A DNA stretch of 64,000 nt. It comes from Rhizobium sp. ASV20 (GTDB taxonomy: Bacteria > Pseudomonadota > Alphaproteobacteria > Rhizobiales > Rhizobiaceae). The stretch spans positions 1 through 64,000 of the forward strand of contig NZ_JAELTU010000021.1 of NCBI RefSeq assembly GCF_016429015.1, in the 5' to 3' direction. The notes under the pieces were generated by a model. The model worked only from the letters and a program-made list of their open reading frames with translations, was not told the DNA's origin and made no database searches. Position 1 is the first letter of the stretch; each line of letters opens with the position of its first letter. The translations under genes and the position numbers were made by a program. Positions 24,212 to 37,751 of this stretch are shown here, in pieces.

Positions 24212-26317
24212 CTACCGGCGAGGCATCATTTCGCTGATCTTGGCAGCGAGAGCCTCCACTGCGAAAGGCTTGCTGATCATGTCCATGTTGGTTCCGAGGA
24301 AACCCGCCTTGGTCGCGGCATTCTCGGCATAACCGGTCACGAACAGAATCGGCAGCGTTGGCCTGTGTTGCCGCGCGATTTCCGCGAGCTGCCGGCCGTT
24401 CATGCCGGGAAGCCCAACATCCGAGACCATAAGATCGATTGTGCGCATACCCGAAAGAAGCGGGATCGCGACGTCCGCATCGCCAGCCTCGATCGCGTGA
24501 TAGCGCAGGTCTGACAGGACTTCGCAGACAAGGAGCCGTACCGCTTCGTCATCTTCCACGACAAGTACGGTCTGCCCGCGCCCTTCCGGGACACTGTCCG
24601 CCAGTTCCACCTGTTCTATTGCGGCCTTTCCCTCCGCCGCCGGCAGATAGAGGCGGATCAATGTGCCCTGGCCGGGCTTGCTACGTATACTGACCGTGCC
24701 GCCCGACTGCTGGGCAAATCCGTATATCATCGACAATCCGAGGCCGGTACCTTGTCCGATCGGCTTCGTCGTGAAGAAGGGCTCAAACACCTTTTCGAGC
24801 ACTTCCGGCGGCATTCCAACTCCCGTGTCGAGCACATGAAGAACGACATAGGGGCCAGGCTGGAGCCGCAGATCATTATGCGCCTCAACGGTCTCACGCG
24901 ACGCTCCGATCGTCAGCTTTCCGCCGTCGGGCATTGCATCCCTCGCATTGATCGCGAGGTTGAGAAGAGCACTTTCGAGCTGGTTGGCGTCGGCAACGAC
25001 ACTACCGACGTCGCCATCCACCCGGGTGTCGACGATAATGGATTCCGGCAAGGTCCGTTCCAAGAGCTCCCTTGTCGCCTCCAACTGTAAGCGCACCTCC
25101 ATCGGCTTTGCGTCCAGGGTCTGCCGGCGTGAAAAGGCAAGGAGGCGGGCGATGAGCGCCGCCGCTCTGTGCGCCGCCTCCGTCGCAGCGTCCATGAACC
25201 GGTCGACATCTGCAACATTACCACTTGCGATGCGCCGCTTCGCGAGATTGATACCGCCGATGATCCCGGTCAGCATGTTGTTGAAGTCGTGGGCAATGCC
25301 ACCTGTTAGTTGTCCCACCGCTTCCATCTTTTGCGCCTGTCGCAGGGCTTCCTCGGCTCGTGTCCGCGCGGCCATTTCCTCCTCCAGCTCGACGGTTCGC
25401 CGGGCGACGCGCTCTTCGAGGGTTCGATTGAGATCGTCCAGCGCTTGCCGTTCCAATCGCAATGCGGCTTCGGACTCCGCGAGCGCCTTTTCTGTTCCTT
25501 TTCGCTGGCTGATGTCGGTTACCGTACCGATGAAGCGGATCGGCCTCCCATCGCTGAAGACGGACCCACCTTTTGCGGCGATCCAGCGCTCGACGCCGTC
25601 CGTGATGCCGACCGTTCGGTACTCGATTTCGACGCTCCCGGTCCCGCCGGGCTGAAGAGCCGCACGGACGGCTTGGTCCGATCGTTCGCGATCGTCGGGA
25701 TGCAGCCCGGCCAGAAAGCTGCCGTCATAGGTGATGTCCGCATCGACAGGCAGTCCAAACATCGTCTTACATCGTTCGTCCCATTCGAGACGACCGGTGA
25801 GGGGATCGAAATCCCAGATACCGATTCCGCCCGTCGTCGTCGCCAGTCGAAGCCGCGTCTCACTCTCGTCCAGGTCAACGAGCCGATCGCGCATTTGAAA
25901 TTGCTTCTCACGCAGCCGCATCGCGGAGGCAATCGCACTGAAGAGCGAAGCCTTACCTAACGGTCGCTCCAGGACGACGCTATTGCTGGCCAGATCAAAA
26001 AGGGCAAGCTTTGAGAGGTGCTCGTTCGGGGTCCGCCCGAACCTTTGCGCCGCAAGCAGGACAAATGGCACATCGGACCAGGACGGCTGTGCAACGAGCG
26101 CGGCCTTCAGGATCGCGACATCCCTTGCGAGCGCCTCTTCGGTCAAGAGGATCGCACCGACGGTCTCGTCTATCCGGCCGGCAATCGCCACGATGTCGGG
26201 GCATATGATGGCCTCATATCCCTCGGCACGCAGAAGCTTCGCGATACTGTCAGCATCCCGACCGAAGGGCGCACTGATCAGTATCCGATGCCCTTCGCTT
26301 TCCCTGTCAACTGTCAC
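24212..26317 (-). CDS. Hybrid sensor histidine kinase with degenerate N-terminal receiver
   Basis: 701 residues, GTG start. Domains in order: a receiver-like segment (about 1-135, HRILISAPFGRDADSIAKLL) that lacks the phospho-acceptor Asp (AILLTEE at that place); a PAS domain (about 150-275, ending FIGTVTDISQRK); a coiled coil (280-330); HisKA with His in GGIAHDFNNMLTG (about 342); HATPase with DTGVGMPPEV and GTGLGLSMIYG; and a C-terminal receiver (about 580-698) with Asp in LMVSDVGLPGMNG and Lys in ISKPFAV. It is soluble. The start overlaps the kaiC-like gene by 11 bp, so the two are co-transcribed and likely partners. Confidence 0.92.
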   Translation of the reverse strand: MTVDRESEGHRILISAPFGRDADSIAKLLRAEGYEAIICPDIVAIAGRIDETVGAILLTEEALARDVAILKAALVAQPSWSDVPFVLLAAQRFGRTPNEHLSKLALFDLASNSVVLERPLGKASLFSAIASAMRLREKQFQMRDRLVDLDESETRLRLATTTGGIGIWDFDPLTGRLEWDERCKTMFGLPVDADITYDGSFLAGLHPDDRERSDQAVRAALQPGGTGSVEIEYRTVGITDGVERWIAAKGGSVFSDGRPIRFIGTVTDISQRKGTEKALAESEAALRLERQALDDLNRTLEERVARRTVELEEEMAARTRAEEALRQAQKMEAVGQLTGGIAHDFNNMLTGIIGGINLAKRRIASGNVADVDRFMDAATEAAHRAAALIARLLAFSRRQTLDAKPMEVRLQLEATRELLERTLPESIIVDTRVDGDVGSVVADANQLESALLNLAINARDAMPDGGKLTIGASRETVEAHNDLRLQPGPYVVLHVLDTGVGMPPEVLEKVFEPFFTTKPIGQGTGLGLSMIYGFAQQSGGTVSIRSKPGQGTLIRLYLPAAEGKAAIEQVELADSVPEGRGQTVLVVEDDEAVRLLVCEVLSDLRYHAIEAGDADVAIPLLSGMRTIDLMVSDVGLPGMNGRQLAEIARQHRPTLPILFVTGYAENAATKAGFLGTNMDMISKPFAVEALAAKISEMMPRR

Positions 26318-27800: not shown

Positions 27801-27931
27801 TCTATCCTAATTTTGTCCGGCGGTTACATGTCACTTCAACAAGATAAACACATTGTCCTGCTTTGCAGGCTTGAAGCAGGCGTGGGCGCTCACCTCACTT
27901 GCTGTTGTATGAAGCGAGCGACGGTCGAGAT

Positions 27932-27957
27932 AACGCCGCTGGGCGGCTATCGGTTCC
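27932..27957 (-). promoter_or_regulatory. EcfG-type general stress promoter upstream of kaiC
   Basis: On the minus strand GGAAC (27957-27953) is followed after 17 bp by CGTT (27935-27932), an exact match to the known alphaproteobacterial EcfG consensus GGAAC-N16/17-CGTT. The -10 element is about 130 bp before the kaiC ATG. The rest of 27801-28158 holds no gene I can support. Confidence 0.72.
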
Positions 27958-28158
27958 AACATAATCCCTGTCGGGTAACGCCGTGGCCGATGCCCTATGT
28001 CGATTTCTCAACGCAGGCGACGAGACACCCGGCGATTTTTTCTAGAAGGCTGATCGCAATTCTCGTCGGACGCCGCACGGTAGTGGCAAACGCCGCGACC
28101 TCGCCTTGCCGATACGAGGCTCCCCGGGCCAATACTTTGGCGGCTTGCAAGTCTTCGC

Positions 28159-28183
28159 GGAACCGCTTCTTGCGGTTCCCGTT
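28159..28183 (+). promoter_or_regulatory. EcfG-type general stress promoter upstream of DUF982 gene
   Basis: GGAAC (28159-28163), 16 bp, CGTT (28180-28183), an exact consensus match ending 52 bp before the DUF982 ATG. The -35 lies inside an inverted repeat (GGAACCGC-5-GCGGTTCC, 28159-28179), which could also be a protein-binding site. Confidence 0.75.
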
Positions 28184-28235
28184 TTGTGGTTGACGGAATT
28201 GCTAGATGACGTCGCCAACAGGAAAGGCAAGTGCA

Positions 28236-28526
28236 ATGAATCCTCCCCGCCAAGCTCATCCCGTGCGTCCGCTTTACGTCGATAGGGACGGCATCGGCCA
28301 ATATAGGAGCGCATATACGGTCGATGATCTTGCCGCGCTCCTGCTGAACGACGGCTGGCCTCATTCAAAGCGAGCATCGATCCAGTTTCATCGCGCAGTC
28401 GCGGCCTTGATCGATGCGTTGGAGAGCCGATGCGATGCAGAGACTGCCAGGCGAGAATTCGTCGCTGCAGCTCATGCCAATGGCCTCCATATCTTGCCTG
28501 ACGACGCCACAAAGCCCGCGCGTTGA
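28236..28526 (+). CDS. DUF982 family protein
   Basis: 96 residues from the ATG at 28236; an ATG at 28206 in frame is possible. The pattern VYDxx...YTVDDLAALLLNDGWP (here RSAYTVDDLAALLLNDGWPH), an AVAALIDALES helix and ARREFVAAAHANGLHI at the end are the DUF982 hallmarks. The family is almost confined to rhizobia and relatives, occurs in many copies per genome, and has no known biochemical function. A consensus EcfG promoter 52 bp upstream suggests induction in the general stress response. It lies between the kaiC operon and the regulator-kinase operon. Confidence 0.82.
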   Translation: MNPPRQAHPVRPLYVDRDGIGQYRSAYTVDDLAALLLNDGWPHSKRASIQFHRAVAALIDALESRCDAETARREFVAAAHANGLHILPDDATKPAR

Positions 28527-28542
28527 AACGGTCGCCGGCTCC

Positions 28543-28560
28543 GGACGCTCTAGAGCGTCC
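28543..28560. repeat. Perfect 18-bp palindrome
   Basis: GGACGCTCTAGAGCGTCC is its own reverse complement and lies 17 bp after the DUF982 stop. The CTCTAGAG core resembles short intergenic palindromes I recall as common in Rhizobiales genomes. It may act as a weak transcript-end hairpin; no T-run follows. Confidence 0.55.
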
Positions 28561-28590
28561 CAAATAAGATCGTGTCGGATGGGAGCGCAT

Positions 28591-28617
28591 AAAAAACGGC
28601 CCGGTTTGGACGGGCCG
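28591..28617 (-). terminator. Intrinsic terminator oriented on the minus strand
   Basis: Read on the minus strand, CGGCCCG pairs with CGGGCCG around a 7-nt loop and is followed directly by TTTTTT. This is a textbook rho-independent terminator. No protein-coding gene on the minus strand runs into it from the right, so it may end a small RNA. On the plus strand it has an A-run before and no T-run after, so it would not efficiently end the DUF982 transcript. Confidence 0.7.
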
Positions 28618-28689
28618 AAGACTCCTCACGCCTCCACAGAAGGCGATGAGCAAATCTGCTGAGGTTGAGACACGAATGTGACCGACCGG

Positions 28690-28713
28690 CGTCATGGCCA
28701 AGTGGCCATGACG
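28690..28713. repeat. Near-perfect inverted repeat with 11-bp arms
   Basis: CGTCATGGCCA (28690-28700), 2 bp, TGGCCATGACG (28703-28713). The very short centre fits a dimeric-regulator operator or a cruciform better than an RNA hairpin. It lies between the minus-strand terminator and the EcfG-type promoter. The rest of 28527-29056 contains no supported gene and forms a leader of about 245 nt for the response-regulator mRNA. Confidence 0.55.
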
Positions 28714-28781
28714 TCTGGTTGTCGTCAACGGCAATTTTCTCTCAAGCTGAGGCTGGCTGGCAAAGGCTGACAAAGACGGGC

Positions 28782-28806
28782 GGAACCATTCTAACTCCAG
28801 AGCGTT
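28782..28806 (+). promoter_or_regulatory. EcfG-type general stress promoter upstream of regulator-kinase operon
   Basis: GGAAC (28782-28786), 16 bp, CGTT (28803-28806), an exact consensus match on the plus strand. It would start transcription near 28813, about 245 nt before the response-regulator ATG. Confidence 0.68.
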
Positions 28807-29056
28807 ATTAAGCGGTTTCACCGTGGGCAATTGCATTGCCGCACCGGCACACACCGTCTTTGAAAGTGGAAAGGAACGGAAGTCGCTTCGCGCACGTCGG
28901 ATCTTCCTCTGCAGCGACGGTAAATGGAACGAACACGCCGCGATTTGATCGATTTTGGCAAGTCGCCGGATCGCATGCCTTTCCGGTCTGGCGCAATTGC
29001 GAGGGGGAAACGAGCAGCTGGATCCGGACGGAAGACGCAAGGAGAGTAAGCCTTCA

Positions 29057-29476
29057 ATGATGGACAATGGCGCCGGTGCCGGGGGGAGAGGAATGAGCTT
29101 GGACGGTCTTAGAGTATTTCTTGCCGAGGACGAGAGCCTTATCGCCATGTCGATCGAGGACATGCTTGCAGATCTCGGCTGTAACGTGGTGGTGGCGGCT
29201 GACAATATCGGCGACGCGGTTGACAAGGCGGGGGCCGCTGGTTTCGACTGCGCCATACTGGATGTAAATTTACGCGGCAAGGAAGTCTTTCCGGTCGCCG
29301 AGATCCTCTCGCAACAGGGAATTCCTTTCATCTTTTCGAGTGGCTATGGCCGCTCGATGCTTCCTGATCAATTCCGCACGCGACCGACGGTGTCGAAACC
29401 CTTCGATATGAAGGATCTGTCGGCTGCCCTTGAAGAGGCGCTCAACCCGGTGTCAACCGGAACGCTGGGCAACTGA
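29057..29476 (+). CDS. Single-domain response regulator (FATGUY-like)
   Basis: 139 residues from the ATG at 29057, preceded by AAGGAGAG. It is only a receiver domain: acidic pocket in FLAEDESLIAMSI, phospho-acceptor Asp in CAILDVNLRGKEV, and Lys in TVSKPFDM. The segment IPFIFSSGYG resembles the PFxFATGYG signature of FATGUY single-domain regulators, some of which feed the general stress response in other alphaproteobacteria. There is no output domain, so it must act by protein contact or phosphate relay. Its stop is 3 bp before the big hybrid kinase, its likely partner. An EcfG-type promoter lies upstream. Confidence 0.85.
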   Translation: MMDNGAGAGGRGMSLDGLRVFLAEDESLIAMSIEDMLADLGCNVVVAADNIGDAVDKAGAAGFDCAILDVNLRGKEVFPVAEILSQQGIPFIFSSGYGRSMLPDQFRTRPTVSKPFDMKDLSAALEEALNPVSTGTLGN

Positions 29477-29479
29477 CCA

Positions 29480-32400
29480 ATGCGCGACGGAGTTGATGTA
29501 GACGATAAAACGACCAGGTCGAATGGGGTGACGGAACATCGGACCGCGCCGGTCGGACCCAATTTTCTAGCGGGTGGCGGTGAAATGGGTGCACTCATCC
29601 GCGCGCATGACTGGACGACCAGTCCGCTCGGATCGCCCGAGACATGGCCGCAGAGCCTGAAGACCGCTGTCCGCATCATGCTCACCTCACGCCAGCCGAT
29701 CTGGATCGGTTGGGGCAAGCAGCTGATCTATCTCTACAATGATCCATATCGATCGATCATTGGCGGAAAGCATCCCTGGGCGCTGGCAAGGCCGACCGAA
29801 GAAGTCTGGCGCGAGATCTGGGGCAATATCGAGCCGATGCTCACGACGGCGATGGGAGGCGTCGAGGGTACCTATGTCGAGGAACAGCTCCTGATCATGG
29901 AGCGGCATGGCTATGCCGAAGAAACCTATTACACTTTTTCCTATAGTCCTATTCCCGACGACGATGGCACGCCCGGCGGCATTATCTGCGCCAACACGGA
30001 CGATACGCAGCGCGTCATTGGTGAACGCCAGTTAAAGTCGCTTCGAGAACTTGCCGCTCACACCGCAAGCGCCCGAACATGGGAGGAGGCATGCGAGAGC
30101 AGCGTTCATTCTCTCGCCGCCAATAGGCACGACCTTACCTTTGTTTTGCTCTATATGGTCCCGCCAGGCGGGGACCAGGCCACGCTGGTTGCCGCCTCCG
30201 GGGTGACAATCGGCAAGCAGGAAGCGCCGGCCTCGCATGCGATTGAAAAGTCCGGTCCTTGGCCGCTTGGCGCTGTCCTGCTCAAGCACAATCCGGTTCT
30301 GGTCGCAGATGTCGCCGAAATCTTCCGGGAAACGGCGCCGTTTGGCCATTGGGACCGTCCAACGACGAATGCGGTCGCCCTTGCCGTGTCTCCCTCGGGA
30401 GAGTCGGGCCGATCCGGCGTCTTGATCGTCGGTCTCAATCCTTATCGCATGTTCGACGACAGCTATAGTGGCTTCCTCGAACTGGCTGCGGGTCAGATCG
30501 GCGCCGCAATCGCCAATGCGGACGCCTATGAAGAAGAGCGCCGGCGCGCCGAAGCTCTGGCAGAGCTCGATCGTGCGAAGACGGCCTTCTTTTCGAATGT
30601 CAGTCATGAGTTTCGCACTCCTCTCACCCTCATGCTTGGCCCCCTTGAGGACATGCTGGCGGGACATGGTTCGACGGCGGATATGAGACAGCAGGCCGAG
30701 CTGGCACATCGCAACGGCACCCGGCTATTGCGGCTCGTCAACAGCCTGCTCGATTTCTCGCGGATCGAGTCAGGTCGCGTGCGTGCCGTCTACCAGCCAA
30801 CTGATCTGGCCGCTTACTGCGCCGAGATTGCCTCCAGTTTCCGATCGGCGATTGAGCGAACGGGGATGACGCTTACGCTCCACTGCAATACCTTGCGTGA
30901 GGCCGTTCTCGTCGACCGAGAGATGTGGGAGACAATCCTCCTCAATCTTCTCTCAAACGCATTCAAGTTCACCCTCACCGGCGAGATTACCGTATCGGTC
31001 GAAACATCCCGCAACGGGCAATCTGCCATCATAGCCGTGCGCGATACGGGGATCGGTATCCCTGAAGACGAGATGCCGAAGCTCTTCGAGCGCTTCCATC
31101 GGGTCGCGGGCGCACGCGGCCGCAGTTTCGAGGGTAGCGGCATCGGCTTGGCGCTCGTGCAGGAGCTTGTAAAGCTGCACGGTGGGCAAATCCGCGCGCA
31201 AAGCATTCCCGGCGCCGGCACGATGTTCGAAGTCTCGCTGCCATTTGGTCACGCCCACCTGCCACGGGAGCAGATCGCCTTCGACGCGAACAGTCCGCCG
31301 GAGGTGCGCAAGGCTCCGGAATTTGTCGAGGAAGCCCTGCGTTGGCTGCCTGGTGCCACTGCCGAGATCGACATGCAAACCGAGCCTGTAAGCGCGGGTC
31401 TCGCAACTCTCGTCAGCCAACGTGAAAGCCGGCAGACACACGGCAAACGCGTCCTGCTTGCCGATGACAATACCGACATGCTGGCCTATGTCTCGCGTCT
31501 CCTCAAGGCCCAAGGCTATTCTGTCGATGTCGCGACCGATGGGGAGACCGCGCTCGTGATGGCCCAGGCAGCGCCGCCCGATTTGATCCTGTCGGATGTC
31601 ATGATGCCGGGGCTGGACGGCTTCGGACTTCTAAAACGCGTTCGCGCAGAACCGGTGCTTGCGCAAATCCCCGTACTCATTCTGTCAGCCAGAGCAGGCG
31701 AGGAGGCGAAAGTCGAGGGACTTGAAGCCGGCGCCGACGATTATCTGATCAAGCCGTTCTCCGCCCGCGAACTCTTGGCCCGTGTGCATTCCAACATTCA
31801 GATGGCGGAGATCAGGCGCGAGGCAAGTCGAGCCGTTCATCGAAGCGAGCAACGCTATCTGATGACGCAGGACCGGCTGTCGCTCGCACTCTCCACGGGT
31901 CGCGTTGCAATATTCGAATGGGCGGTCGACAGTGACCGCCTGGCCATACGAGGTCCCCTCGTCGAGGTGTTCGGTGTTCCGGAGGCTGACGCGGAGGCGG
32001 GCTTACCGCTCGATGCCTTTCTCGGCAAGATCGATCCGCGCGACCTCGAACAGGTACTTTCGCTGCTTGGCCAAAGCGTGGAGACGGGTGCGCCATATGA
32101 GGCGGAGTATCGCGTGCTTGGCTCCGGGCAGGAGCGCGTCGTTGTGGCGCGCGGCAGGGTCGAAATGGACGTCGAAGGTCACAAGCGAGTTGTGGGCGTC
32201 GTCATCGATATCAGCGAGGAAAAAGCCGCTCACGCCGCATTGAAGGAACAAAGCAGGGCTCTTTCGATCGTCAATCGCGCCGCGATCGCCATTTCGGGGG
32301 ACCTTGACCAGACGAGGCTGGTCCAGGCAATCACGGATGCCGCCGTGGAACTTGTGGGCGCCGAATTCGGCGCCTTCTTCTACAATGTGATCGATGAGCG

Positions 32401-34030
32401 AGGCGAGAGGTACACGCTCTATACGCTGTCGGGCGCGCCGCAGGATTCATTTGCCAGTTTCCCGATGCCCAGAAATACCGAGGTATTCGGTCCAACCTTT
32501 ACAGGCACGGCGGTTGTTCGCTCGGCCGATATCACCAAAGATCCGCGCTACGGACGAGCCGCGCCGCATTATGGAATGCCAAAAGGTCATCTGCCCGTCA
32601 GAAGTTATCTGGCCGCCCCGGTAAAGGCACGAAACGGTGAAGTGTTGGGCGGTTTGTTTTTCGGACATTCGCAGCCTGACATGTTCGATCAGATGGCGGA
32701 GGAGGGCGTTGTGGGGCTGGCGAGCCAGGCGGCCATCGCCATCGACAATGCCCGCCTGTTCCAATCAGCCGAGCGCGAGCTGGCTCAAAGGCGATTGGCA
32801 GAGGAGGAGCTTCATGCCCTCAACCTCAATCTTGAGGCACGCGTCGCCGACGAAATGGCCAGACGTGCATCGGTCGAAGATGCGTTGAGACAGGCGCAGA
32901 AGATGGAGGCGGTTGGCCAATTGACGGGCGGTGTGGCCCACGACTTCAACAACCTGCTAACGGTCATTATCGGCGGTCTCGATACGATCAAAAGGAGTAA
33001 GCCAGGCGACCATGCGCGAGTTTCCCGCGCCGCCGACATGGCTTTGCAGGGCGCGCAACGGGCCGCAAACCTCACCGGCCGTCTTCTCGCATTCTCAAGG
33101 CGCCAGCCTTTGGCTCCAAAACCCGTTGAGCTTAACGGGCTGGTACGCGAGATGACCGAGCTTCTGCACAGGACACTCGGCGAACAGGTCGAACTTGAGG
33201 GCGTGCTTGCGCCGCGTCTTTGGACGGTCGAGGTCGACCAGAACCAGTTGGAAAGCGCGATCCTCAACCTTGCGGTGAACGCCCGCGATGCGATGCAGGA
33301 TGGCGGCAAGCTGACGATTGAAACCGCGAATACGGCGCTTGACGAAAGCTACGCCGCGATCGATGCTGAGGTCATCCCCGGTCAATATGTCATGATCGCG
33401 ATCAGCGACACAGGGGCAGGCATGGCCAAGGACGTCCTTGCGCGCGCCTTTGAACCTTTCTTTACGACGAAGGAGATTGGCCGTGGTACCGGCCTTGGCC
33501 TCAGCATGGTCTATGGCTTCGTCAAACAATCCGGTGGCCATGTGACAATTTACAGTGAGGAGGGTCAGGGTACGACGGCCAAGCTCTACTTCCCACGCTA
33601 TATTGGCTCGTCGGAGGTTCAATTGGGTGACGAAACACCCACGATCCCCACGGGCAGCGAGGGTGAAGTCATTCTCGTCGTAGAAGATAATCATGAGGTG
33701 CGGACCTATAGCACAATGGTCCTCTCGGAACTTGGTTATGTTGTTCTCGAGGCACCAGAGGCTGAGGCTGCACTGACAATCCTGCGCACCGACCAGCGCA
33801 TCGATCTTCTGTTTACCGACGTCGTGCTGCCGGGTCGCACCGGACGAATGCTGGCAGATGCCGCCATGGAGGTGCGGCCGGGGTTGAAAGTGTTGTTCAC
33901 GACGGGCTATTCCCGCAACGCAATCGTCCACCAAGGGCGTCTGGATGCCGGGGTCCAGCTCATTACCAAGCCCTTTACCTTCGAACAGCTTGCTGCTCGA
34001 GTAAGGGACGTTCTCGATTCTGCGCGCTGA
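29480..34030 (+). CDS. Giant double hybrid histidine kinase (two kinase modules, two receivers)
   Basis: 1,516 residues without membrane helices. In order: PAS-like input (about 35-165), GAF-like segment (190-350), HisKA with His in NVSHEFRTPLT (about 375), HATPase (480-590, DTGIGIPEDE, GSGIGLALVQE), receiver 1 (about 655-770, Asp in LILSDVMMPGLDG, Lys in YLIKPFS), PAS (805-915), GAF (930-1095), second HisKA (GGVAHDFNNLLT, about 1152), second HATPase (GRGTGLGLSMVYG), and receiver 2 (about 1395-1512, Asp in LLFTDVVLPGRTG, Lys in ITKPFTF). All catalytic motifs appear intact. It shares an operon with the single-domain regulator. Its second half resembles the kinase beside kaiC, which suggests duplication and fusion. 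Confidence 0.92.
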   Translation: MRDGVDVDDKTTRSNGVTEHRTAPVGPNFLAGGGEMGALIRAHDWTTSPLGSPETWPQSLKTAVRIMLTSRQPIWIGWGKQLIYLYNDPYRSIIGGKHPWALARPTEEVWREIWGNIEPMLTTAMGGVEGTYVEEQLLIMERHGYAEETYYTFSYSPIPDDDGTPGGIICANTDDTQRVIGERQLKSLRELAAHTASARTWEEACESSVHSLAANRHDLTFVLLYMVPPGGDQATLVAASGVTIGKQEAPASHAIEKSGPWPLGAVLLKHNPVLVADVAEIFRETAPFGHWDRPTTNAVALAVSPSGESGRSGVLIVGLNPYRMFDDSYSGFLELAAGQIGAAIANADAYEEERRRAEALAELDRAKTAFFSNVSHEFRTPLTLMLGPLEDMLAGHGSTADMRQQAELAHRNGTRLLRLVNSLLDFSRIESGRVRAVYQPTDLAAYCAEIASSFRSAIERTGMTLTLHCNTLREAVLVDREMWETILLNLLSNAFKFTLTGEITVSVETSRNGQSAIIAVRDTGIGIPEDEMPKLFERFHRVAGARGRSFEGSGIGLALVQELVKLHGGQIRAQSIPGAGTMFEVSLPFGHAHLPREQIAFDANSPPEVRKAPEFVEEALRWLPGATAEIDMQTEPVSAGLATLVSQRESRQTHGKRVLLADDNTDMLAYVSRLLKAQGYSVDVATDGETALVMAQAAPPDLILSDVMMPGLDGFGLLKRVRAEPVLAQIPVLILSARAGEEAKVEGLEAGADDYLIKPFSARELLARVHSNIQMAEIRREASRAVHRSEQRYLMTQDRLSLALSTGRVAIFEWAVDSDRLAIRGPLVEVFGVPEADAEAGLPLDAFLGKIDPRDLEQVLSLLGQSVETGAPYEAEYRVLGSGQERVVVARGRVEMDVEGHKRVVGVVIDISEEKAAHAALKEQSRALSIVNRAAIAISGDLDQTRLVQAITDAAVELVGAEFGAFFYNVIDERGERYTLYTLSGAPQDSFASFPMPRNTEVFGPTFTGTAVVRSADITKDPRYGRAAPHYGMPKGHLPVRSYLAAPVKARNGEVLGGLFFGHSQPDMFDQMAEEGVVGLASQAAIAIDNARLFQSAERELAQRRLAEEELHALNLNLEARVADEMARRASVEDALRQAQKMEAVGQLTGGVAHDFNNLLTVIIGGLDTIKRSKPGDHARVSRAADMALQGAQRAANLTGRLLAFSRRQPLAPKPVELNGLVREMTELLHRTLGEQVELEGVLAPRLWTVEVDQNQLESAILNLAVNARDAMQDGGKLTIETANTALDESYAAIDAEVIPGQYVMIAISDTGAGMAKDVLARAFEPFFTTKEIGRGTGLGLSMVYGFVKQSGGHVTIYSEEGQGTTAKLYFPRYIGSSEVQLGDETPTIPTGSEGEVILVVEDNHEVRTYSTMVLSELGYVVLEAPEAEAALTILRTDQRIDLLFTDVVLPGRTGRMLADAAMEVRPGLKVLFTTGYSRNAIVHQGRLDAGVQLITKPFTFEQLAARVRDVLDSAR

Positions 34031-36851: not shown

Positions 36852-37751
36852 TTACTCGATCAAGGCAAGCGCGGCCACCGCACTCGGCGGCCTCTGACAA
36901 GGGTCGGGTGCACTGAGCCGTTGCGCGAGGAAGTCGAGCGGCTCGATCGCGTCATCATCGCTGCTGCAATGCTCGACAAGCATCTTCAGGACACGTCCGG
37001 CTGCGTAGAGATCAGCGCTGAATTGCATGGTCGCATCGGCGGAAACCTCCGGTGCGATAAACCCTGGCGTCCCCGCCTTGGCGATATCGAGATCATTGGG
37101 TCGGATTGTGCAAGGCACCATCGTACCAAAATCGGCGATCTTCAGCTGCGCATCATCGTCGAGCAATAGGTTGGCCGGCGAAATATCGCCGTGGACATAG
37201 CCGGCATCATGGATCGCGCCCAGGCCGAGGAGCAGGGATTTGGCGATGGCCCTAACATTCGTCGCCGCAACAGAACCCTCGGCCAGCCGCTGCGCCAGGG
37301 ATGGTCCAACCCATTCCATGATGATCGCCGGGCGCCCGTCGGATAATCGGATGGCACACTGGGTCACGACAAGATTGCCGTTTGACACCGTCATGCCTAT
37401 GCGGGCTTCTCGTAGCAAAAGCGCTCTTGCTGTTGCCGCATTGGTCCGGTCGCGCACAATTGTTTTCATGGCGTGGAGAGTTCCGAGATCACGATGACGC
37501 AGTCGGCTGATTTCCGTCCGCTCAGTGTGGTGCACCACCGCTTCAACGAGAAAGGTGTTCCCAAGGAAGTCTGCGTCGTCGCTCGGCCAACGCGATAATC
37601 GCCGATCCAGCGCGTCACGCAGTTGATCGATCAGGAGATCGCGGACCTCAGCCGGTCGTTCCGTCTCGCCGTCGCGGACAAGAAGATCGAGCAGCTCGGC
37701 AAATCGGCATGCGATCCTCCTCATATCCTCCGTGCTTGGACTTCTGTTCAT
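36852..37751 (-). CDS. tagE: T6SS-associated Ser/Thr protein kinase TagE/PpkA
   Basis: 299 residues. Kinase landmarks: ATP-binding Lys in LHAMKTIV (about 95), catalytic loop HGDISPANLLLDD (about 187, Gly in place of the usual Arg of HRD), DFG in KIADFGTM (about 205), and the activation-segment end GTPGFIAPEV. It is shorter than many PpkA proteins and has no membrane segment or periplasmic sensor. In imp-type T6SS this kinase phosphorylates components such as TssL or Fha to switch on assembly; the target here is inferred. It is the last gene of the leftward operon and overlaps tagF-pppA by 4 bp. Confidence 0.9.
   Translation of the reverse strand: MNRSPSTEDMRRIACRFAELLDLLVRDGETERPAEVRDLLIDQLRDALDRRLSRWPSDDADFLGNTFLVEAVVHHTERTEISRLRHRDLGTLHAMKTIVRDRTNAATARALLLREARIGMTVSNGNLVVTQCAIRLSDGRPAIIMEWVGPSLAQRLAEGSVAATNVRAIAKSLLLGLGAIHDAGYVHGDISPANLLLDDDAQLKIADFGTMVPCTIRPNDLDIAKAGTPGFIAPEVSADATMQFSADLYAAGRVLKMLVEHCSSDDDAIEPLDFLAQRLSAPDPCQRPPSAVAALALIE

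Follow-up and report, generated by a model that had tools for sequence, protein, structure and literature searches.

A candidate stress-induced sensory island pairing a KaiC-family ATPase with a pseudo-receiver histidine kinase in Rhizobium

What connects a KaiC-family ATPase, two large histidine kinases, a single-domain response regulator (RR) and a DUF982 protein that lie side by side in a Rhizobium genome? We addressed this question in a window of 64,000 bases of the 8.29 Mb draft assembly of Rhizobium sp. ASV20 (contig NZ_JAELTU010000021.1, positions 1 to 64,000), in which kaiC and the hybrid kinase gene HK1, the DUF982 gene, and RR and the kinase gene HK2 make up three neighbouring units (Table 1). 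The original prediction for this DNA placed an exact GGAAC-N16/17-CGTT, the consensus of the general stress sigma factor EcfG, upstream of each unit and joined the units into a time- or energy-sensing module of the stress response. Pfam and NCBIfam matches bear out the gene identities of the island, including the 1,516-residue kinase and the single-domain receiver named there (kaiC and HK1 lie just outside the interval 27801–34030 that had been given), and a pattern scan of the window recovers an exact site in the right orientation upstream of every unit. Our best overall explanation, to which we give even chances, is a stress-induced sensory island in which the KaiC ATPase gates a kinase through a pseudo-receiver.

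Evidence for EcfG-type control comes from the same gene families elsewhere. Of 94 kaiC genes, 19 have an exact site in the 400 nt upstream (18 of 93 when the window is set aside), compared with a mean of 0.29 and a maximum of 3 in shuffles of the same stretches, and antisense sites occur at 3 of 94, among them the DUF982 site of the window. Spacers N16 and N17 account for ten and nine sites and N21 for one, the nine remaining spacer lengths between 11 and 22 being unoccupied; of the 21 sense sites present from −1400 to +600, 17 fall within the last 200 nt; and the true pair of boxes scores 19, where all 210 letter rearrangements, itself among them, average 0.51 and the next best reaches 4. Five further kaiC genes carry the variant GGAAC-N16-AGTT, with N16 alone, and no exact site was found at the nine kaiC genes from other proteobacterial classes. 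The 94 loci with upstream sequence comprise the window, 39 from genomes of the family, 46 from samples of the order and the class, 6 from plasmid records and 2 HK2 loci; they derive from 41 of 46 places of a first search, all places of a second, 25 new places of the 52 of a third (20 left out) and 6 of 222 plasmid records, and L093 was excluded because its kaiC start is cut off. All were picked by similarity to the window KaiC, which sets that KaiC family as the scope, and they are not independent, since two of the KaiCs (L239 and L141) are identical and many rows are closely related.

HK2 relatives were collected from named genomes, with 80 loci kept of 235 and 79 remaining after L182, which has no upstream sequence, was dropped. 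Exact sites stand upstream of HK2 or of its regulator in 19 of 46 alphaproteobacterial loci, in both unclassified metagenome-assembled genomes and in none of 31 others, the alphaproteobacterial and other classes having been assigned by hand from the organism names of the records. Antisense sites number 3 of 46, shuffle means are 0.26 and 0.40, and the Fisher test gives P = 8.7e-6, a value that overstates independence because 12 of the 19 positives are Bradyrhizobium or Rhodopseudomonas. EcfG itself is described as confined to Alphaproteobacteria (PMC3892343). For DUF982, counting no more than the best-scoring locus of each genome and dropping L298 for its short upstream stretch, exact sites lie within 400 nt of the domain in 9 of 29 loci (L288–L317), with none in antisense. 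The assembly of the window holds an exact site at no fewer than 4 of its 16 DUF982 copies, the window counted (others on contigs C214, C375 and C387), and Rhizobiaceae genomes sampled carry up to 17 copies.

The regulators that such promoters call for are present. NepR, PhyR and an EcfG-type sigma factor are all encoded in the assembly (PhyR and the RNA polymerase sigma factor above curated cut-offs, the latter named EcfG from its place after nepR), and exact sites adjoin these stress regulator genes. Together with the spacer, strand, position and taxon controls, this supports EcfG-type control of the three gene families. Because exact sites stand far above chance in the kaiC, HK2 and DUF982 families elsewhere, we regard transcription of the three window units from the predicted EcfG promoters as very likely, despite the weak count in the window itself.

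A second line of evidence links KaiC to its kinase. A domain of about 145 residues opens the gene next after kaiC in 95 of 95 loci (94 by survey and L238 by direct search), partner starts being taken from the longest open reading frame, which favours overlaps with kaiC; HK1 begins with GTG and overlaps the kaiC stop by 11 nt. Searching in reverse, with the domain profile against 299 genomes of the phylum, returned 29 copies, 28 of them directly behind a kaiC; 13 places were already in the kaiC set, and 15 of the 16 new places lie behind a kaiC. Judged by gene order, KaiC and HK1 form a real, nearly obligate unit. On plasmids, kaiC–HK1 pairs (L196, L198 and L199) lie amid cold shock, ferritin-like, catalase, HtpG and J-domain genes, which suggests that pairs on large plasmids among stress genes are mobile stress islands. 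The best plasmid match to the window's island covers the kaiC–HK1 part alone, on a plasmid of Rhizobium sp. BG4, and among the plasmid records searched none covers 80% of the island.

The shared domain is predicted to be a modified receiver. The first ~145 residues of HK1 match no Pfam family above cut-off (best E 0.014), and a domain profile matches receivers weakly by sequence (E 8e-5). An AlphaFold2 model built from 83 sequences (mean predicted local distance difference test score 92.1, predicted template modelling score 0.87) has the (beta-alpha)5 receiver fold, and its structural matches are receiver domains (Foldseek, VIA-align 2; best Z 15.8, root mean square deviation 2.4 over 135 residues); that the CikA pseudo-receiver is not among the 50 fold matches listed is uninformative. 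With columns mapped through a receiver profile alignment, 72 of 89 sequences have Glu and 5 have Asp at the phospho-Asp position, the acidic pair is replaced by Ala (75 of 89) and Pro (85 of 89), and the receiver Lys is Arg in all 89. Asp21, Trp80 and Arg118 of the HK1 pseudo-receiver are invariant. A receiver fold without phospho-Asp, acidic pair and Lys marks the domain as a pseudo-receiver, and the loss of normal phosphorylation chemistry argues for an adapter rather than a phosphate acceptor. The kinase half behind this adapter varies: the 95 kaiC partners include 26 of the HWE class, 66 HisKA and three without a class (ten scanned with Pfam were all HWE), and the KaiC tree calls for four or more changes of kinase type. 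Because the kinase half has switched while the adapter is constant, the adapter appears to stay with KaiC as kinases are exchanged. HWE/HisKA_2 is the kinase class that mainly activates PhyR; exact kaiC sites are no commoner with HWE partners (6 of 25) than with HisKA partners (13 of 66). As the same adapter carries an HWE kinase in relatives, the family could plausibly link KaiC to the stress response, and the case is less strong for the HisKA version found here.

Could this KaiC be a clock or a timer? Ser417-Tyr418 of the window KaiC occupy what we take to be the positions of Synechococcus elongatus Ser431-Thr432. As in KaiABC-type proteins, there are two RecA domains, each with an intact Walker A motif (the Walker A lysines are kept in 94 of 95 family members, one row being truncated, and in 95 of 95), and all 95 members carry Ser or Thr at the Ser431 column; in the window protein the Ser-Thr phosphosite pair is replaced by Ser-Tyr. 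Across the 95 members the Thr432 column reads Tyr in 85, Phe in 9 and Ile in one, Ser takes the place of CI Glu77 in 90, and no match to KaiB (PF07689) was found in the fragmented draft genome. Without a KaiB match and with a Ser-Tyr pair a clock is unlikely; a KaiABC circadian clock is disfavoured, and the time-sensing function first proposed for the island is not supported. Tyrosine at the second phosphosite is known from some KaiC3 proteins (PMC5520375). A looser timer, in which the stress output is timed, as in hourglass or clock systems, by phosphorylation of KaiC or by turnover of its ATPase, would draw on the conserved two-domain architecture and on Methylobacterium extorquens, whose KaiC proteins are reported to control temperature-dependent UV resistance (PMC8069551); the KaiB result and the altered phosphosite and Glu77 columns make it very improbable. 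An energy-sensing role is possible.

Several findings weigh against reading the locus as one stress-controlled island. The three exact GGAACN{16,17}CGTT sites of the window all fall within 0.9 kb (27.9–28.8 kb), each facing kaiC–HK1, DUF982 or RR–HK2, and as a count they are weak alone: window shuffles average 0.99 sites and reach three or more in 7 of 100, and the whole assembly has 147 matches versus 226 for the reversed pattern, so raw pattern counting was rejected as uninformative. An exact site is missing from 75 of 94 kaiC genes and, among the 14 closest relatives, present in two (L196 at −339 and L202 at −151); L063 (83%) and L197 (79%) have none. Rhizobium leguminosarum WSM1325, which also has a kaiC–HK1 pair, likewise carries no exact site at its kaiC. 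On the KaiC tree the exact-site label forces at least 10 changes over all rows, 15 on the drawn tree, and five when exact and near rows alone are compared. The predicted kaiC site turns over quickly. The predicted RR–HK2 site is better kept, being exact in 6 of 11 HK2 loci of at least 66% identity (L116–L119, L123 and L125), GGAAC-N16-AGTT in 2 (L120 and L124) and not found in 3 (L121, L126 and L181). Conservation of the motif in orthologous loci, on which the original prediction had staked itself, is largely lacking among the closest kaiC relatives, and the motif recurs across the wider kaiC family. The window DUF982 has one homologue, at 49%, in 199 genomes of the family, and this one is without a site; the site of the window gene shares bases with a perfect 8-bp inverted repeat, GGAACCGC-TTCTT-GCGGTTCC (28159–28179), and so may belong to another element. 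A repeated element was rejected as the source of this inverted repeat, which occurs once in the assembly. That assembly consists of 1,068 contigs with 5.38% contamination, and phyR-nepR-ecfG is present at two loci (contigs C221, L114, and C261, L115) that are 89% identical over 1.87 kb; the two copies and the contamination mean that it may mix two strains or may hold two stress-sigma systems. In the kaiC and HK2 neighbourhoods searched, with PhyR matches confined to the receiver part filtered out, one clear EcfG match appeared (L136, 47%) and four others lie at 25–30%; stress regulators beside kaiC or HK2 were rejected as a general pattern.

The site counts, the inverted repeat and the absence of a kaiC site in most close relatives would suit boxes that are chance or vestigial, with the genes using other promoters. 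We consider this improbable: all three boxes face a gene start within 275 nt, so tight a three-site cluster is rarer than the count implies (the site density of the genome predicts about 0.018 such cases), and the enrichment in each gene family elsewhere speaks against it.

Whether the three units act together is a separate matter. The remaining points on the unfavourable side are that one full HK1-type adapter kinase (L277/L287) lacks a kaiC in the surrounding 5 kb or so, its genome carrying a complete pair elsewhere; that DUF982 stands beside kaiC or HK2, among the neighbourhoods surveyed, in the window only, as does the three-unit assembly as a whole; and that HK1 and HK2 are both HisKA kinases, outside the HWE/HisKA_2 class, which makes an output of this island into the general stress response doubtful. 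Matches to HK2 at E 1e-250 occur in 4 of 199 family genomes, the window's own counted, and a kaiC lies within 10 kb of an HK2-type kinase in 3 of the 80 named loci. This last count and the DUF982 result would fit three ordinary stress-regulon units, each driven by EcfG, that had come to lie side by side, with KaiC–HK1, DUF982 and RR–HK2 not acting together; DUF982 and HK2 genes often have EcfG-type sites whatever their location, and the plasmid kaiC neighbourhoods hold other stress genes. Such independence is a real possibility, though we do not think it probable. What speaks for a connection is that RR–HK2 and kaiC meet in three arrangements: divergent in the window, kaiC–HK1–RR–HK2 in Rhizobiales AFS022961 (L124) and RR–HK2–kaiC in Rhizobium leucaenae (L117), which hints at a functional tie. 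In the third named locus, from Rhodomicrobium (L141), kaiC lies 7.7 kb from the kinase start and no RR was found. Of the module first proposed, the KaiC–HK1 pair stands, and in the neighbourhoods surveyed the attachment of HK2 to it is rare and that of DUF982 was met in the window only. As a separate observation, a single-domain or other receiver related to RR lies downstream, not upstream, of the HK2-type kinase in 11 loci (L134, L135, L136, L140, L145, L149, L159, L171, L183, L191 and L192).

Table 1 Features of the island in the window
Feature	Coordinates	Strand	Description
HK1 hybrid kinase	24212..26317	-	N-terminal pseudo-receiver (about residues 10-155), PAS_3, HisKA, HATPase_c, C-terminal receiver
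Pseudo-receiver adapter domain of HK1	25850..26317	-	Without Pfam family; predicted receiver fold; Glu at phospho-Asp position, Ala-Pro for acidic pair, Arg for receiver Lys
KaiC-family ATPase, 497 aa	26307..27800	-	Two RecA-type domains, each with an intact Walker A motif
Predicted EcfG promoter of kaiC–HK1	27932..27957	-	GGAAC-N17-CGTT; starts 157 nt ahead of kaiC ATG
Predicted EcfG promoter of DUF982	28159..28183	+	GGAAC-N16-CGTT; overlaps inverted repeat
DUF982 protein (PF06169)	28206..28526	+	Pfam match
Predicted EcfG promoter of RR–HK2	28782..28806	+	GGAAC-N16-CGTT; starts 275 nt ahead of RR ATG
RR single-domain response regulator	29057..29476	+	Phospho-Asp69, Asn at D+2, PFIFSSGY (relaxed FATGUY motif)
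HK2 kinase, 1,516 aa	29480..34030	+	Two HisKA-HATPase-receiver modules; PAS and GAF between them, weak PAS/GAF matches before; 3 nt past RR stop

The DUF982 frame likely begins at the ATG at 28236, behind AGGAAAGG; the predicted fold of the protein (predicted local distance difference test score 82.5) has as its best structural match a weak one, 2kpq at E 0.16. Beyond the island, at 36852–62106, the window holds a type VI secretion cluster with a protein kinase, TagF, TssM/IcmF, TssL/DotU, TssF, TssC, a ClpV-like ATPase and a VgrG-like protein.

We propose the following mechanism. EcfG would transcribe kaiC–HK1, DUF982 and RR–HK2 from the three predicted promoters, a step well supported by comparison, and the sensors would then be produced under an active general stress response. 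The KaiC ATPase, which probably forms a ring like other KaiCs, would dock on the N-terminal pseudo-receiver of HK1 and gate the kinase according to the state of its own nucleotide or phosphorylation; the nearly obligate gene pair and the predicted fold point this way, and we think gating through the pseudo-receiver somewhat probable. HK1 and HK2 may finally pass phosphate through their own receivers and RR, a shared hub or shuttle by analogy with MrrA and SdrG, and in this way adjust the stress response or outputs related to it.

KaiC homologues of non-photosynthetic bacteria have so far been catalogued without a general output route, and nearly obligate pairing with one adapter domain offers a concrete and testable output, and the EcfG-type promoters hint at the time of its use. 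We found no description of the KaiC and adapter kinase pair in open-access full texts (supplements lay outside the search). Tentatively, and at somewhat less than even confidence, we suggest that this widespread proteobacterial KaiC family is a non-clock sensor hard-wired to histidine kinases by a pseudo-receiver, the kinase being interchangeable (HWE or HisKA hybrid), that it has repeatedly come under EcfG control in Alphaproteobacteria, and that it supplies an energy or history input to the stress response. DUF982, a family of unknown function, emerges as a candidate recurrent target of general stress control.

Cyanobacterial KaiC works with the output kinases SasA and CikA, the second of which has a pseudo-receiver, and the Rhizobium pair is alike in joining a KaiC-family ATPase to a histidine kinase and in the pseudo-receiver itself. 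Here, unlike in the cyanobacterial system, the pseudo-receiver is N-terminal and its gene lies directly after kaiC, KaiB was not found, Ser/Thr-Tyr stands for Ser-Thr, and CI Glu77 is replaced. KaiC1 and KaiC2 of M. extorquens, likened here by description and not by sequence, are alphaproteobacterial KaiC proteins governing UV and temperature resistance, whereas their output is described through LabA (PMC8069551). The EcfG (RpoE2/SigT) regulon of Alphaproteobacteria shares the consensus of the island, reported as GGAAC-N16-CGTT in Rhizobium etli (PMC3892343), and a promoter table from Sphingomonas melonis holds both N16 and N17 sites (PMC6599016); reported regulon members include an orphan hybrid kinase in S. 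melonis and two-component pairs in Sinorhizobium meliloti (PMC6180224). In open-access full texts, again with supplements outside the search, no report of kaiC as an EcfG/RpoE2 regulon member was found, and DUF982 was met in a domain table only.

RR–HK2 has closer counterparts. S. meliloti SMa0113/SMa0114, Caulobacter MrrA and Sphingomonas SdrG likewise combine a kinase with a single-domain FATGUY-type regulator, and SMa0113/0114, a direct RpoE2 target as reported (PMC6180224), is the nearest arrangement known to us. HK2 is a 1,516-residue double HisKA hybrid; Sma0114, by contrast, is described as associated with an HWE kinase. MrrA is reported also to take phosphate from one HisKA kinase, and it shares with RR an Asn at D+2 (DVN in RR) and a Tyr at T+2 (SSGY in RR) (PMC5964349). 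RR departs from them in reading PFIFSSGY instead of the published PFXFATG(G/Y) (PMC5964349), and an HK2-linked relative of RR (L145) reads PFVFATGY; the label 'FATGUY-like' given earlier to this receiver is a fair one for a relaxed form of the motif.

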